A stretch of 64,000 nucleotides of DNA, taken from the IMG/VR virus record IMGVR_UViG_3300025073_000042, positions 1 through 64,000 of that record; one strand, 5' to 3'. Made by a program: the position numbers and the translations under genes. Origin of the DNA: a virus. Positions 17,075-61,955 of this stretch are shown in pieces. The notes under the pieces are model-generated. The model had not been told where the DNA came from and ran no database searches. It saw only the letters and a list, made by a program, of their open reading frames with translations. The stretch's first letter is position 1. Each line of letters starts with the position of its first letter.

Positions 17075-17103
17075 TTGACGCGCGGGGCGGGATGTGGTAG
17101 GGT
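17075..17103 (+). promoter_or_regulatory. Promoter TTGACG-17-TAGGGT
   Basis: -35 at 17075-17080, -10 at 17098-17103, spacing 17. No gene follows directly; the RNA would run into the motif-rich gap. Confidence 0.5.
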
Positions 17104-17562
17104 GATGGGCGATGGTCGGCGCAGCACGGACGGACCCCCGCAGAGCCTGAAAGGACGCTCCAGACACTTCGCGAAAACCCCATAAAGCCCCAAACGACAG
17201 CCTTTCCTGAAGCAGAGGAAAAGCGAGGAAACCTCGCGGAAACCTCATTTTGCCCGTAGGATAGCCTGCCTGCCGCACAGCGCAGGCATTCCTCGGCTCT
17301 TTAGGCGGGCGCGCGGGCGCGCGATCACGCGCGACCCCCACACTTAGCGGAAACCTATCTGCCAACCAACCGCGAATACCCCAAAAGCCCGTCGTTGCAA
17401 CGAAAATGGCCTATATACATGAGGCGATTTTTGCGAAAACCAAGTTTTCTAGTTTGCCGCTACTGGTGTGGAATGCCGAGATTTGAACGCGGATCGGGTT
17501 TTCGTCATGGCGCCCGACTGTGGAGCCGTGCCACCAGCGCCCATCGGGGGTCATCGAACCGC

Positions 17563-23399: not shown

Positions 23400-23599
23400 C
23401 CGCCGAACTGCTTCCGCGCGGCGGGGACGAGGTGTGCGTCGTCTGTGGGGCCTCGGGCTGCGCGGGGCGGCCCTACGCGCGCCCCCGGGTGCTGGCGCTC
23501 ACGCGCGTCGAGCGGCTGTTGGGGGGCGAGTTGCAGCGGGCGGCGGGCCGTGCGTTCGAGGCGACGTGCCCGAGGTGCGGGGCGACGAATCAGCTGTGA
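23351..23599 (+). CDS. Small zinc-ribbon protein, 82 aa
   Basis: It has CVVCGASGCAGR in the middle and CPRCGATNQL at the end, a likely four-Cys zinc ribbon. ATG 23366 is a possible alternative start. It is the last gene before the RNA-rich block at 23.6-24.4 kb. Confidence 0.5.
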   Translation: MGEAGMQPQVHDPPAVTAELLPRGGDEVCVVCGASGCAGRPYARPRVLALTRVERLLGGELQRAAGRAFEATCPRCGATNQL

Positions 23600-23603
23600 T
23601 GGC

Positions 23604-23632
23604 TTGACGCGATAGGGTGTTCGCAGTATGCT
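23604..23632 (+). promoter_or_regulatory. Promoter TTGACG-17-TATGCT
   Basis: -35 at 23604-23609, -10 at 23627-23632, spacing 17. No gene lies between it and the terminator at 23827-23852. Confidence 0.8.
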
Positions 23633-23638
23633 GACCTC

Positions 23639-23858
23639 GCTCGTCCCAGGTAATGACCTCGCGAGGGGTCAGGTGAGCAGCCGCGGTGGGGAATCCGCCC
23701 CGTCCCGGAGCGGCACCCCCGGTCCCGTTTGAGGAGCGTGTACCCGGACTCAATCCCGTGGCCACGGGGAGTTCGGGGGCGCCGGCCATAACCTGGCTAA
23801 ACCCGCCCATGTCTTCACATGGGCTGAAGGCCGCTCCGCGAGGGGCGGCCTTCGCTTT
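23639..23858 (+). ncRNA. Candidate ~220-nt structured noncoding RNA
   Basis: It lies between its own promoter and terminator, with no plausible ORF. CCAGGTAATG (23646-23655) pairs with CATAACCTGG (23787-23796) over 9 of 10 positions as a closing helix. Inside are GACCTC-GCGA-GGGGTC (23655-23670, GNRA loop) and a long hairpin around TCCCGTGGCCACGGGGA (23754-23770). After the closing helix comes GCCCATGT-CTTC-ACATGGGC (23805-23824), then the terminator. I know no matching family. Confidence 0.6.
23827..23852 (+). terminator. Intrinsic terminator hairpin with GCGA loop
   Basis: AAGGCCGCTCC (23827-23837) and GGGGCGGCCTT (23842-23852) form an 11-bp stem (one G-U) on a GCGA tetraloop. A short T-run (CGCTTT) follows. 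Confidence 0.75.
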
Positions 23859-23863
23859 GGGGG

Positions 23864-23892
23864 TTGACATCATCGACGGCTCTAGGTATACT
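23864..23892 (+). promoter_or_regulatory. Promoter TTGACA-17-TATACT
   Basis: Perfect -35 at 23864-23869 and strong -10 at 23887-23892, spacing 17, just after the terminator. It should start an RNA at about 23899-23900 that leads to the gene at 24401. Confidence 0.9.
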
Positions 23893-23899
23893 GAAAGCA

Positions 23900-23994
23900 C
23901 TTCGAGAGCTGTGCGGGTTTTGCGTTTTCGGACAACCTCTTCGGCCCCGGCAGCCCGCGCAGCTCTCGAAGGCAGCGCAAGCAGTCGGGGCCGA
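23900..23994 (+). ncRNA. 5'-terminal interleaved RNA structure (pseudoknot-like)
   Basis: An 18-bp helix pairs 23900-23917 (CTTCGAGAGCTGTGCGGG) with 23954-23971, with one G-U. A 9-nt segment of its loop (TCGGCCCCG, 23941-23949) is perfectly complementary to CGGGGCCGA at 23986-23994. The order A1-B1-A2-B2 is that of an H-type pseudoknot or of two competing helices. A1 begins at the predicted transcript start. Confidence 0.65.
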
Positions 23995-24013
23995 TTTGTG
24001 TTTCAATGAGAGG

Positions 24014-24385
24014 CGAGGCGTGGTACGGTACGGCGGGCTCGGGTTTGGTTGGGCGGGGCAAGGCAGGGCGAGGGTCGTTTGCTATCATCCGCTTCCATTG
24101 GCGTGGTGTGGCCGGGTGATGTGTGTTTTGGTGGGTCCTGGCGGGGTGAGGTTGGGCGAGGCGAGGCGAGGGCTGTAACCGCCATTCTACCTCTTCACGA
24201 GGTGAGGCGCGGTCCGGCTTGGTCCGGCTTGGTAAGGTAGGGTAGGGGTCGTTCGCCATCATCCATCTTCTCACGGTGAGGCAAGGTCAGGTGCGGCAAG
24301 GTCAGGTGAGGTGCGGTCTGGTCTGGTGCGGCAAGGTTTGGTCCGGCGAGGCGAGGCAGGGCGAGGGTCGTACCAATCACATCCC
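24014..24385 (+). repeat. Phased (Y-N-N-G-G) pentamer array with conserved spacers
   Basis: Four tracts of 5-base units run at 24014-24073 (12 units), 24102-24171 (14), 24198-24247 (10) and 24272-24366 (19). Nearly every unit is pyrimidine-N-N-G-G (CGAGG, CAAGG, TCCGG, TCTGG and so on). The phase never slips within a tract. Between tracts lie similar ~25-30-base spacers of the form GAGGGTCGTTTGCTATCATCC, and the last ends at the ribosome site AAGGAGGGA of the 24401 gene. Confidence 0.9.
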
Positions 24386-24400
24386 AAGGAGGGAGCAGAC

Positions 24401-24958
24401 ATGCAGACGTTCAGGGCAAGGATCGAGGGACTGTCGCCGCTGTTGATGCACCGCTTCAGCGAGGAAGCGGAGAAGGCCGTTGAGGAGCAGATCAAGACGA
24501 AGAAGGCCGATCACGGGACACCGGAGGAGGAGGCCGAACGCGCCGCATATCGGATCGACGGCCTGAACAGCGAGCTGTACCTGCCGGGCGAGGCGGTCTA
24601 CCAGTCGCTCGTGAAGGCTGGTGTCGGCTTCGCCGTCCCTGGCGCGCGGGGGAAGACCTACAAGGATTCTGTGAAGGGCATGGTCGTCATCCAGCCGGAG
24701 TGCATTCCGCTCGGCACTGATGAGTACGTCCTCGACTCGCGCCGGGTACGCATCCAGCGCGGAACGTGCATGAGGAAGCGCCCTCGCCTCGATCAGTGGG
24801 CGGCGGAGTTCGAGGTTATGATCTTGGACGAGGAGGCGTTGCCACCTGCGACGCTACTCGCCATCCTGCAGCGCGCCGGTCAGATGGTCGGGGTGCTCGA
24901 CTATCGTCCGCGCTTCGGGCGCTTCCAGGTGACGCTGTGGGAGCAGGTCGCGTCGTAG
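24401..24958 (+). CDS. Conserved phage protein (GLSPLLMHRFSEE family)
   Basis: A 185-aa protein with ARIEGLSPLLMHRFSEEAEK at the N-terminus, a charged GTPEEEAERAAYR loop, LYLPGEAVYQSLVKAG, RVRIQRGTCMRKRPRLDQW and a C-terminal GVLDYRPRFGRFQV. I remember similar proteins in phages and mobile islands, often annotated as hypothetical. The 'G..PLLM..f' and 'G..RP..GRF' ends are reminiscent of RAMP/Cas7-like RNA-binding folds, but this is weak. It follows a ~500-nt structured leader and may bind it. Confidence 0.6.
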   Translation: MQTFRARIEGLSPLLMHRFSEEAEKAVEEQIKTKKADHGTPEEEAERAAYRIDGLNSELYLPGEAVYQSLVKAGVGFAVPGARGKTYKDSVKGMVVIQPECIPLGTDEYVLDSRRVRIQRGTCMRKRPRLDQWAAEFEVMILDEEALPPATLLAILQRAGQMVGVLDYRPRFGRFQVTLWEQVAS

Positions 24959-41480: not shown

Positions 41481-41487
41481 ATGGATG

Positions 41488-41586
41488 CCCTGGCAGGCGC
41501 GCCTCAGAATCGTACAACCGGCCCCATCCCTCCGCGGCGCGCCTGCCAGGGCCGCCGAGCGGGGATGGGGCCTGCCGATTCTGAGG
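41488..41586 (+). promoter_or_regulatory. Two-state leader RNA that can mask the ribosome site of 41593
   Basis: Three perfect complements interleave. A1 41488-41503 pairs with A2 41536-41551 (16 bp). B1 41502-41512 pairs with B2 41576-41586 (11 bp). C1 41520-41530 pairs with C2 41562-41572 (11 bp). B and C nest into one long hairpin that covers the first bases of the GAGGAGGT ribosome site, while A1-A2 competes with or crosses it. A1 and A2 are complete before C2 and B2 are transcribed. Confidence 0.75.
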
Positions 41587-50501: not shown

Positions 50502-50566
50502 TAGGAGGTGATTCCTCGGGAATCGGTTAGCGGAAACCAGCCCCGAGAGGAGTTGTGTGGACCATA
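50499..50566 (+). repeat. Leader repeat, copy A
   Basis: About 68 bp roughly 80% identical by eye to copy B at 51850-51918. Both contain the GAATCGGTTAGCG.AAACCAG core and a CCCCGAGAGGAG ribosome site. In copy A the start codon position reads ATA or an earlier GTG. Confidence 0.8.
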
Positions 50567-50582
50567 AGAAAAGCGGCAGGGG

Positions 50583-50604
50583 ACCGTCGTCTTTAGGCGA
50601 CGGT
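50583..50604 (+). repeat. Left-end hairpin of the tnpB element
   Basis: ACCGTCG (50583-50589) pairs perfectly with CGACGGT (50598-50604) around TCTTTAGG. The same CTTTAG loop and stem appear at the right end (51821-51842). Such subterminal hairpins mark IS200/IS605-type ends. Confidence 0.65.
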
Positions 50605-50629
50605 GGAATGCCGCAACCTCCCTCCTGGT

Positions 50630-50658
50630 TTGACTTGCTCTGCCCTATATGGTATGAT
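50630..50658 (+). promoter_or_regulatory. tnpB promoter TTGACT-17-TATGAT
   Basis: -35 at 50630-50635, -10 at 50653-50658, spacing 17. The predicted start coincides with GTG 50665, so the tnpB mRNA may be leaderless. Confidence 0.75.
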
Positions 50659-50664
50659 ACCAAC

Positions 50665-51834
50665 GTGAACCGAACGGTGCGTCTCATGCTCCAACCTACC
50701 CCTGAGCAGGCCTCTGCGCTGGCTGAGACCTCTCGCCAGTTCACGGAGGTCTTCAACGTTGTCTGCGCCTGGGGTTGGGCCAACACCGAACGCAACGGCG
50801 TCCGACTGCATCATGCTACCTACCGGGACCTGAAGACGCGCCTCCCCGCCCTGGTCTCCGACCTCCACTGCCAAGCCAGAGTCAAGGCGACCGAGGCCCT
50901 GAAGTCTGCCTTCGCCCTGCGGCTGAAAGGGCAGAAGGTCAACGCCCCTCATTCCGACGCTTGTCCATCTCGCCTGAACATCCACACCTTCAAACTGGAT
51001 TGGTCGGCCTCCGCCGTTCGCCTCTCGACGACGGATGGCCGGATGACCGTGCCCTTCTCGGCCCCGCAGTTCTCCGAGAAGTGGACGGGCGAAACTCCGC
51101 TGACCGCCGACCTCATCGAACGCAACGGTCGTTGGTGGTTGCACGTCGCGGTTGACGTACCCGCGCCGGTTGTCATGCCCTCGGCAGAGGTCGTCGGCGT
51201 TGACCTTGGGATCGCTCGGCCCGCCGTCATCTCCAACAACTGCTTCCTCGGGAAGCGCGGTTGGCGCAAGATCGAAGACCGCAACCTCCGTCTTCGTCGT
51301 GCCCTTCAGACGGCGGGCACCAAGTCCGCCAAACGGCATCTGAAGAAGATGCGCCGCCGACAGGCCCGATTTCGAAGAGACTGTGATCACGTCCTCTCGA
51401 AGCAGATCGTGGCCGCCGTCCAACCCGGCGGGACCGTCGTCCTCGAAGACCTGAAGAACATCCGCTCCTGCGCCCGTCAACGACGCGGAGGGCAGTCCCG
51501 TCGCCTGCACGGATGGTCGTTCGCGCAACTGAAGTCCTTCGTCCAGTACAAGGCCGAGGAGGTTGGGGTAACGGTGGCGCTGGTCAATCCGGCGCATACC
51601 TCTCAGACCTGCTCCTCCTGTGGACACAAAGCCCGCAACAATCGCCGGTCGCAGTCGGCGTTCGTCTGTCGTCAGTGCGGCTTCACGCTGAATGCCGACC
51701 TCAACGCGGCCCGCAACATCGCGGCCAAGTACCTCACCGCCTCCGGCATGACCGGAGCGGATGGGCTGTCTATCAAGCAGCCTGATGTGGGGAGTCATGC
51801 TCTGCATGGTTCACTCACAAGCCGTCTGCTTTAG
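50665..51834 (+). CDS. tnpB: TnpB RNA-guided nuclease, intact
   Basis: A 389-aa TnpB. The RuvC-type active site is complete: Asp in VVGVDLGIARP (~180), Glu in TVVLEDLKNIRS (~261) and Asp in NADLNAARNIA (~345). The four-Cys zinc finger CSSCG..CRQCG lies before the last Asp. The N-terminal MLQPTPEQASAL and the basic LKKMRRRQARFRRD helix are typical. Its guide RNA would come from the 3' end and the sequence past the right-end hairpin. The stop lies inside that hairpin. A start at GTG 50557 would add 36 unrelated residues. Confidence 0.9.
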   Translation: MNRTVRLMLQPTPEQASALAETSRQFTEVFNVVCAWGWANTERNGVRLHHATYRDLKTRLPALVSDLHCQARVKATEALKSAFALRLKGQKVNAPHSDACPSRLNIHTFKLDWSASAVRLSTTDGRMTVPFSAPQFSEKWTGETPLTADLIERNGRWWLHVAVDVPAPVVMPSAEVVGVDLGIARPAVISNNCFLGKRGWRKIEDRNLRLRRALQTAGTKSAKRHLKKMRRRQARFRRDCDHVLSKQIVAAVQPGGTVVLEDLKNIRSCARQRRGGQSRRLHGWSFAQLKSFVQYKAEEVGVTVALVNPAHTSQTCSSCGHKARNNRRSQSAFVCRQCGFTLNADLNAARNIAAKYLTASGMTGADGLSIKQPDVGSHALHGSLTSRLL

Positions 51835-51849: not shown

Positions 51850-51918
51850 ATATAGAAGGCGATTCTTCAGGAATCGGTTAGCGCAAACCAGACCCCGAGA
51901 GGAGCCGTGGAGACCATG
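51850..51918 (+). repeat. Leader repeat, copy B, with pseudopilin start
   Basis: The counterpart of 50499-50566. It ends in the ribosome site GAGAGGAG and ATG 51916. The promoter-like TTGACA before it lacks a -10 at the right distance. Confidence 0.8.
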
Positions 51919-52593
51919 AGACGAGGCGCACGAGGCTTCACCCTGATCGAGCTGTTGGTGGTCATTGCGATCATCGCCATCCTGGCGGCGATCCTGTTCC
52001 CTGTCTTCGCCCGCGCTCGTGAGAAGGCGAAGTCGGCAAGCTGTCTGAGCAACGTCAAGCAACTTACGCTTGGTCTGATGATGTACGTCGGTGACTACAA
52101 CGACACGATTCCGATGACCGGCGCGGGCTTCTGGGATGGCGGCGGGAACTGGACAGGCTGTTGTAACCTGCGGTGGTATACGAGCATCTTCCCCTATCTG
52201 AAGAACCAGGAAATCCTCGCCTGCCCCTCCGTGCGCGGACAGTTGGGCTATGTGGCCGTCTGTCGCACGCAGGCCTCCATCCTCAGCGAGCTATCATCGC
52301 CAGCCACGACCGGGATCATCACCGACGCATACCGCCCGCAGCCCAGACTGGACTCGGGACAGGACTATGCGGACGGTAGTCCGGTGTACGCTCCGGCGAA
52401 GCTCCAACAGCCCACCAACGCGCCGTGGGGCGGTCCCCCGCCCTGCTCGGGAGGCCTGGCGAATGCGCTGCCCGCCGACCGGCACAATCGAGGGGTCAAC
52501 GTGGGGTATCTCGACGGACATGCTAAATGGCAGGGAGTGGTGGTCTTCTCTGGTGATCGAGCCATCATCCCGGCCTCCAAGTGGGACCCGTAA
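51916..52593 (+). CDS. Type IV pseudopilin-like protein with prepilin signal
   Basis: A 225-aa protein with a textbook type III signal: RRGARG then [20 protein letters not shown], with the conserved Glu at +5 after the cleavage site. [20 protein letters not shown] and the C-terminal [16 protein letters not shown] are marks of the H-X9-DG (DUF1559-like) pseudopilins of Planctomycetes and Armatimonadota. It needs a host prepilin peptidase, so it is probably host-derived cargo. ATG 51916 is preferred over GTG 51907. Confidence 0.85.
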
Positions 52594-52604
52594 GGGGATT
52601 GGTT

Positions 52605-54260
52605 ATGAGACGCACCCTGACGATAGTCCTGCTGGCCGTGTTGGCATCGGTTGGCGTGTGCCAAGACTTCACCTTGGCCGCCCTGCGAATGAGCGACAAA
52701 CTGACCAATCACTCGCGTCCCCGCGCCCCTCTTCGAGGGCTGAGTCTCGCGGGGGCTCGCGGGGAGACGGTCGCGGCACAGTTCGCGGTCATCGCAGGAC
52801 CCGGTTGCGAGTCCGTCAACCTCAGCACCCTTTGGTTCCAGGGCCTCATGCCAGCCGCTCACCCGATACAGTTCCTGACGCTCAAAGATGGGGAGTTGCG
52901 GGCCGAGGTCATCAGCAATAGCTGGACTGCCAGTTTTACGCCCGAGCGGAGAGTCGTGCCTATCTGGGTGACGGTGCGGATACCGGATGGCACGGCTGCG
53001 GGGCAGTATCGGGGAACGGTCACGGTCACTGGTTCGGAGCAGAAGGAGCGCATTCCGGTAGCGGTGCGTGTCTACGACTTCGACCTTCCGAAGCAGCAGC
53101 ACCTCCCCACGGACTTCGCCTTTCGGCCGGGGAAGGTCTGGGCCTACTTCAACGATACCCCCGGCAACGACGACCGCTGGTGGGAGCACATGACCTTCGA
53201 GCGGTACTCCCGCTGGCGGGCGAAGCTGATGGAGTATCGCATCACTCCGCAGCCCTACATGGATTCCCCGCCGGCGAAGGGCCTGGATTCAATGGCCTAT
53301 CAGTGCTGGCTCGATGGGTCGTGGGATGGCGAAACCTCGATGCCGGACTGGGGTCTGTTCGACCAGCAGGTAGAGGACCAGTTTGCGAATGGGGCAGCGA
53401 TGGCGCGGCTCGGGTATACGAGCGCGCCGGACCCCGACTCCGACCGTTGGCGCTTCTGGCGAACGTGGTTGCCTCAGTTGGAGCGGCACGTTCGAGACGA
53501 GGGCTGGGAGCGGCGCTGCTTCATCTATCAGACGGACGAGGTGGTGCCCGATCAGTTCCCCGGCTTCATGCAGCGCGGGGAAGCCATCGGACGCCTCGCT
53601 CCTTCGGTGAAGAGGCTGACGGTCATTCAGCATCCATACCCCGAGGAGATCAACGCCGTCACCGACATCTGGGTGACGACGATGGGCGTCTTCAGCAGCA
53701 ACCAACAGCGGGCGCACGACCTCCAGGCGCAGGGGGATGAAGTTTGGGTCTACGTGTGCTGCTCGGGAGCCCCGCCCTTCAGCGAACTCTACATCCATGA
53801 GGACGGCCTCAACCATCGGCTGCTCCCGTGGATTATCCGCAAGCATGGACTCCAGGGGTTGCTCTACTATGGGTGCTGCTTCTGGACGGATCAATACCGG
53901 GCGCGTTTGGCCGATGTGGAGGAGGATGGGACCCTCTCGCCTGTCTGGGGGCTGACGAACGGGCAGTATGATGGCGGGGGCGTCCTGCTCTACCCCGGCG
54001 GCAAGCGCATCGAGGACGAACCGCAGGTCAGCCTGCGCCTCGCGCTCCTCGGGCAGGGCCTGCAGGACTGGGAGTACTTCTGGCTGCTGGACGACCTTGT
54101 GAGGCGGGGGCGCGGGACTGAGCGGCAGAGGATGCAGGCGCGGGCACTGCTGGAGGTGCCCAATTCAGTAGTCAAGGGTTGCGGGGAGTTCACAACCGAT
54201 GAGAGGCGGCTTGACGGGCATAAGGCGAAGCTGGCGCGGCTGATCGAAGCGATGGACTGA
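52605..54260 (+). CDS. Secreted DUF4091-type glycoside hydrolase-like protein
   Basis: A 551-aa protein with a signal peptide (MRRTLTIVLLAVLASVGV, cleavage near CQD). An Ig-like part (about 25-165) is followed by a TIM-barrel-like region with DRWWEHMTFERYSRWRAKLM and CFIYQTDEVVPDQFPGF. The end, GGGVLLYPGGKRIEDEPQVS then LQDWEYFWLLDDL, is the DUF4091 signature. It may act on cell-surface glycans. It follows the pseudopilin gene by 11 bases, so they form a pair of exported proteins. Confidence 0.75.
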   Translation: MRRTLTIVLLAVLASVGVCQDFTLAALRMSDKLTNHSRPRAPLRGLSLAGARGETVAAQFAVIAGPGCESVNLSTLWFQGLMPAAHPIQFLTLKDGELRAEVISNSWTASFTPERRVVPIWVTVRIPDGTAAGQYRGTVTVTGSEQKERIPVAVRVYDFDLPKQQHLPTDFAFRPGKVWAYFNDTPGNDDRWWEHMTFERYSRWRAKLMEYRITPQPYMDSPPAKGLDSMAYQCWLDGSWDGETSMPDWGLFDQQVEDQFANGAAMARLGYTSAPDPDSDRWRFWRTWLPQLERHVRDEGWERRCFIYQTDEVVPDQFPGFMQRGEAIGRLAPSVKRLTVIQHPYPEEINAVTDIWVTTMGVFSSNQQRAHDLQAQGDEVWVYVCCSGAPPFSELYIHEDGLNHRLLPWIIRKHGLQGLLYYGCCFWTDQYRARLADVEEDGTLSPVWGLTNGQYDGGGVLLYPGGKRIEDEPQVSLRLALLGQGLQDWEYFWLLDDLVRRGRGTERQRMQARALLEVPNSVVKGCGEFTTDERRLDGHKAKLARLIEAMD

Positions 54261-60956: not shown

Positions 60957-61038
60957 GCCTGCGGAGGCTACCACAACTGACCTAAGATCACCTCGCCCGA
61001 CTTCGACCCGCCTCCGCAGGCACGGTCGGAGTCGGGCG
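60957..61038 (+). promoter_or_regulatory. 5'-terminal interleaved RNA structure before the HNH gene
   Basis: A1 60957-60968 pairs perfectly with A2 61010-61021 (12 bp). B1 60994-61008 pairs with B2 61024-61038 (15 bp, one G-U). The order is A1-B1-A2-B2. A2 lies wholly in the B loop, so the two helices compete or form a tight pseudoknot. Confidence 0.7.
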
Positions 61039-61834: not shown

Positions 61835-61842
61835 AGCAACCC

Positions 61843-61955
61843 GCCCGCGCAATGGCGCGGGCTGGAGGCCGGTGCGCAACGGCCTCCGCTTCTACCACGG
61901 GGCAGTGGGTGCCCGACCCTCAACGCGCGCCTCCGGGAGGCTTCCGGAGGCGCGC
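61843..61955 (+). terminator. Three strong hairpins after the HNH gene
   Basis: Perfect stems: GCCCGCGC/GCGCGGGC (61843-61862), GGAGGCCG/CGGCCTCC (61864-61887, then GCTTCT) and GCGCGCCTCCGG/CCGGAGGCGCGC (61925-61955, 12 bp). Together they probably end the HNH transcript. Confidence 0.6.

Follow-up and report, generated by a model that had tools for sequence, protein, structure and literature searches.

What does a stretch of about 220 nt contribute to a phage genome if it runs from a promoter to a terminator-like hairpin and contains no gene? For the segment at 23639-23858, the original prediction had proposed a free-standing structured RNA of no known family. Its promoter, its lack of a gene and its small hairpins withstood our analysis, but the exceptional core and the helix drawn to close that core did not. 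Our best reading is that two untranslated regions, each with a promoter of its own, precede a VIPR locus and that the segment is the first of them; the evidence does not support a new family of structured RNAs.

Genomic setting of the segment

The window analyzed here comprises 64,000 nt of an IMG/VR record of 79,951 bases, i.e. a phage genome of about 80 kb. Terminase as well as major head and tail proteins identify a tailed phage. Searches with the portal or terminase recovered no relatives, and the major capsid protein was the only member of the portal/terminase/capsid set to find any (identity about 26%). Judged by its sequence, the phage is very divergent and unlike anything in the collections searched.

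The segment is located in a gap of about 800 nt that separates the upstream gene, whose end is at 23599, from the next gene, which starts at 24401. Codon usage resembling that of the phage genes was absent from every frame of the region (approximately 23600-24400), and ORF translations matched no family in Pfam or PHROG. A hidden gene was therefore rejected, all ORFs having negative codon scores, which bears out the claim that the segment contains no plausible gene. The long minus-strand ORF at 23499-23900 was also discarded as a gene, being mechanical. A search for tRNAs and tmRNA returned none. The existence of a gene-free unit that runs from a promoter to a hairpin is well supported, and this unit is probably transcribed. 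The following features make up the segment and the locus behind it:

23639-23858, + strand: candidate untranslated RNA (putative start and end)
24012-24076, + strand: vrRNA 1, GGYNN repeats
24100-24174, + strand: vrRNA 2, GGYNN repeats with a degenerate 5′ part
24201-24250, + strand: vrRNA 3, GGYNN repeats
24275-24369, + strand: vrRNA 4, GGYNN repeats (19 units)
24401-24958, + strand: vipr gene, encoding a RAMP protein (phrog_4652)

VIPR consists of Vipr, a small RAMP protein with a core of the RRM type, and of GGY/NN vrRNAs, and its characterized member stems from phage SUSP1 (PMC13142463, preprint). A vrRNA contains 9-16 YNNGG repeats with variable NN and a constant tail and is encoded beside vipr; targets are read with a one-base skip, and vap is an accessory gene (PMC13142463). 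The stretch 24012-24958 is a VIPR locus on account of both its protein and its repeats. The array (24012-24369) is composed of four blocks of 8-19 GG-phased units each, with a GGGTCGT-type tail behind three of them, and blastn matched its repeats next to phrog_4652 genes of Felix O1-like phages. The product of 24401-24958 matched phrog_4652 (E = 1e-22), the only annotation that the families searched gave for the locus, and one of unknown function. Phages phiSUSP1/SUSP2 were among its tblastn matches (E = 2e-9). The AlphaFold2 model of Vipr (pLDDT 91) was closest to Csm3/Cas7 among solved structures (Z 12.9, 156 residues, rmsd 3.4). A scan by the array alone yielded 120 loci, 85 of which had a Vipr homologue.

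Behind vipr, no vap-like gene was recognized, and the next ORFs matched neither Pfam nor PHROG. Targets of the vrRNAs were sought in the phage's own genome and in the other loci examined without a match above control, and an exact scan of viral contigs with 11 units of vrRNA 4 likewise returned nothing. The nearest Vipr relatives were those of loci L095 (45% identity) and L136; neither VIPR locus is preceded by a counterpart of the 220-nt segment. In L136 (850-1840), from a MAG labelled Ardenticatenales, GGYNN arrays flank vipr on both sides.

Given the identity of the downstream locus, the 220-nt RNA lies in a VIPR control region. The segment was rejected as a vrRNA since it has no GGYNN repeats; a GG-phased run of 8 units is absent from 23600-24000. 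That the RNA is a dedicated VIPR component, e.g. an RNA that helps to process or assemble the vrRNA-Vipr particle, is very improbable despite its adjoining position on the same strand, as nothing similar in sequence or structure was found in 133 other loci (85 of the 120 array-derived ones with vipr) and the main text of PMC13142463 names vipr, vap and vrRNAs only.

Promoter class and 3′ hairpin module

The two ends of the unit, together with a second copy of its 3′ part, are as follows:

23604-23632, + strand: promoter P1, TTGACG-17-TATGCT (promoter scan and strand-count class)
23805-23824, + strand: first hairpin of a tandem 3′ module, 8 pairs
23825-23854, + strand: second hairpin of the tandem module, terminator-like, 13 pairs, poor U-tract
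61836-61897, + strand: paralogue of the tandem hairpin module, directly after the stop codon of an HNH gene

The scan recovered P1 at exactly its predicted position, with a score of 9/12. The evidence for P1 is stronger than this score implies, because its class is strongly biased in strand: the strict form TTGACN-17-TANNNT occurs at 13 sites on the + strand and at none on the - strand of the 80-kb genome, where shuffles give an expectation of 0.05 sites per strand. The class is sharp and sigma-70-like, with all members on the + strand (5330, 10230, 17075, 17563, 23604, 23864, 47907, 50630, 60922, 62015, and 63072; in the full record also 68664 and 76419). The hexamers of P1 are identical to those of the promoter for gene 47955.

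Behind most promoters of the class, a gene begins within about 35-170 nt. P1 is an exception, placed 5 nt past the stop codon of the gene upstream and 200 nt ahead of the terminator. Such an arrangement would be odd for an ordinary GC-rich spacer, in which the terminator of the head operon merely adjoins the promoter of a short, non-functional transcript and the folds arise by chance; however, no clear gene is seen over a long stretch behind another class promoter, at 17075. The same exception favors a small RNA of about 220 nt that acts independently and in trans, through its structure or by base pairing; its own promoter and 3′ hairpin module, with no gene between them, speak for this as well.

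Several further observations were made elsewhere in the genome. In the roughly 450 nt that follow the promoter at 17075 (17075-17560), no clear gene is present, and GCGRAAACC motifs are repeated. On the - strand, 17465-17490 reads like the 3′ end of a tRNA (TTCAAATC..CCACACCA) and is possibly an attachment site. A TnpB-like protein with a Cas12f1-like TNB domain (Pfam E = 5e-24) is encoded at 50557-51834 and starts at a class promoter. At 51907-54260, a prepilin-like DUF1559 protein is found beside a glycoside hydrolase of family GH123, an unusual cargo for a phage that may hint at the host.

At the 3′ end, the predicted 8-bp hairpin is present (23805-23824). In the two copies of the tandem module, every pair that can form in both holds, and 4 pairs are compensatory, with both sides changed, which speaks for a functional RNA module at which transcripts end. 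Since this copy with compensatory changes lies behind a gene stop (61836-61897), 23805-23854 is probably the terminator module of the phage. Of the terminator as predicted, the stem of 13 pairs thus gained the backing of a paralogue; the U-tract behind it is CTTT only, and a consensus terminator scan did not list the hairpin at 23825-23854, so that termination is something we infer. In other viral contigs, the tandem module was sought and not found. Its re-use right behind the stop of another gene is also what a plain spacer would show.

Fold of the core and search for relatives

Between promoter and 3′ module, the core contains three elements of interest:

23639-23678, + strand: 5′ hairpin domain with a GCGA-capped stem (23654-23671), pair probability 0.6-0.8
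23706-23714, + strand: CGGAGCGGC, complementary to the terminator arm 23830-23838, possible antiterminator
23743-23777, + strand: interrupted hairpin of 14 pairs, the only strong element of the core, pair probability 0.98

The whole 220 nt fold with a z-score of -3.4. Nearly all of the excess structure comes from the end module, which alone reaches -6.3. The core (23639-23796, z = -1.1) ranks 69th among 320 genome windows; for its sub-core 23680-23796, the z-score is 0.1. Locally, values of -2.5 (23639-23679) and -3.0 (23740-23780) were obtained, and the only well-determined elements of the core are the 5′ hairpin, including the GCGA-capped stem that had been foreseen, and the hairpin at 23743-23777. 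The multi-branch core, taken earlier to be unusually structured, is therefore ordinary. This favors the spacer and weakens the case for an independent RNA, although the stable hairpin at 23743-23777 would suit the latter.

A nine-pair long-range helix had been drawn around the core. In the computed fold, the helix in this position has 5+3 pairs with a mean pair probability of 0.19, and the sole nine-pair long-range helix found joins 23706-23714 to 23830-23838 by perfect pairs. Because its partner is the 5′ arm of the terminator itself, helix and terminator are mutually exclusive, as expected of an antiterminator, and the earlier drawing cannot hold both. A fold forced to contain the nine-pair helix was predicted at -117.0 kcal/mol, compared with -118.9 kcal/mol for the best fold (+1.9), and is favored until the 3′ arm of the terminator is made. 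Shuffled sequences formed this duplex more rarely (p = 0.006-0.008), and 2 of 40 random hairpins used as controls also reached p = 0.01 for pairing of the antiterminator type. The assignment of 23706-23714 as an antiterminator is hence suggestive and no more. For a spacer devoid of function, a complementarity of this kind is unlikely (p ~0.01).

Searches for relatives covered known families, the phage itself and other genomes. The Rfam search called for at the outset was run on the window with the covariance models of Rfam 15 and gave no match at the gathering score; the best match below that score was P26, with 20.9 bits (cut-off 36) and E = 0.09. At both the gathering and the E-value level, the segment accordingly matched no known family, in line with the original prediction. 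Its exact pattern is absent from the viral contigs searched and recurs nowhere in its own genome. No homologue was detected by blastn and nhmmer in the 133 other loci, nearly all of which had been fetched by VIPR array or Vipr, nor in plasmid and phage collections. Covariance model R1 found no relative in 1.24 Mb (best foreign match E ~1). Among 400 genomes from the phylum of the Ardenticatenales MAG that holds L136, only short matches occurred, several of them to the terminator stem. Compensatory evidence is thus limited to the paralogue of the 3′ module, the core having no relatives. Finally, duplexes in trans with the vrRNAs, the neighboring leaders, or sampled gene starts never beat shuffles.

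Conservation being found nowhere in these searches is in keeping with a spacer, which we nevertheless regard as somewhat unlikely in view of its promoter and the antiterminator pairing. An independent small RNA is unlikely as well, given a core structured no more than background, the lack of relatives by blastn, nhmmer, covariance model or pattern, and the duplex results. The statement that the segment is an independent RNA and not a leader is not supported: the core is ordinary and has no relatives that could show conservation, and the last 60 nt are re-used at the end of a gene. As the unit stands directly ahead of a VIPR locus that has its own second promoter, a role as leader or insulator is at least as likely.

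Possible leader switches in the VIPR control region

The second promoter-led region follows immediately:

23864-23892, + strand: promoter P2, TTGACA-17-TATACT, for the VIPR locus (promoter class)
23900-23994, + strand: bistable P2 leader, A (23900-23917) paired with A′ (23954-23971) versus a hairpin at 23941-23994 followed by TTTGTGTTT

The two competing states of the P2 leader have predicted energies of -49.7 and -46.9 kcal/mol. Inverted repeats in the order A-B-A′-B′ with arms of 9 or more occur three times in the window (about 0.5 in shuffles), in all cases directly at promoters (23864, 41453, and 60922). These leaders with overlapping inverted repeats (23900-23994, 41487-41572, and 60957-61038) are unrelated in sequence. 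The second hairpin of the 60922 leader ends in TTGTGTTT and is terminator-like, as is that of the P2 leader, and in the 41453 leader sequence and fold indicate that the second hairpin extends over the ribosome-binding site GAGGAGG. The switch of P2 between A/A′ and terminator is clearer than the antiterminator pairing of P1. Next to the arrays of the other VIPR loci tested, bistable leaders were not seen; as a general VIPR feature they were rejected, and they represent a habit of this phage.

We tentatively favor the reading that the P1 unit belongs to the VIPR control region as a leader or an insulator and is not translated, which we consider quite possible, if somewhat short of probable. Transcription would start at about 23639 and proceed through some 160 nt of untranslated RNA, and transcripts would end, at least sometimes, at the tandem hairpin (23805-23854). 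This hairpin may also stop or protect incoming transcripts of the upstream head genes, and we propose that the guide-RNA locus is insulated in this way. During synthesis, 23706-23714 may base-pair with the terminator's 5′ arm, making the unit possibly a conditional terminator; the choice of pairing would then decide whether transcription stops there or continues through the P2 leader and the four vrRNAs into vipr. That the P1 unit serves VIPR at all is likewise something we infer.

This leader or insulator reading draws on the 13:0 promoter class, the absence of a coding frame, the re-used 3′ module, the rarity of the antiterminator pairing in shuffles, the VIPR array and vipr downstream on the same strand, and the clearer switch of P2, whose design was found three times and always at promoters. 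Several points argue against it. With P2 situated downstream of the terminator, the VIPR locus needs no read-through from P1; L095 and L136 have no similar upstream part; two of the 40 control hairpins equal the p-value; the U-tract is weak and the consensus scan missed the hairpin; and no homologue indicates selection on the core. A more specific version, in which two successive RNA switches control VIPR (P1 as conditional terminator, P2 as A/A′ versus B/B′ leader), is decidedly doubtful. If true, it would define a class of leader switches by topology alone, since the P2 design recurs ahead of two other genes without shared sequence, and such switches would read something generic, e.g. the speed of transcription, instead of a ligand.

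Taken as one RNA that has no relatives, the segment is of modest interest; its place in a VIPR control region matters more. This guide-RNA system has been known only since 2026, and conditional terminators that gate guide expression would, if confirmed, provide a first testable proposition about the timing of such systems by phages.

With ROOL, GOLLD, 6S RNA, tmRNA, and RNase P RNA, the segment shares a gene-free, transcript-sized layout from promoter to terminator; it differs in having no Rfam match, no excess of structure in its core and no relatives. The downstream locus resembles characterized VIPR in its Vipr of Cas7/Csm3-type RAMP fold and its same-strand GGYNN vrRNA array, and differs in lacking a recognized vap and in carrying a bistable leader before the array. 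In transcription attenuators, e.g. the rplJL leaders, antiterminator and terminator are mutually exclusive. Unlike these, the P1 unit is followed by no gene before the next promoter, the next gene being vipr behind P2; it has no recognized conserved sensor domain or leader peptide, and its effect on termination is a predicted one. What it has in common with attenuators is a promoter, a long untranslated leader, a terminator-like hairpin, and a strand complementary to the 5′ arm of that hairpin.
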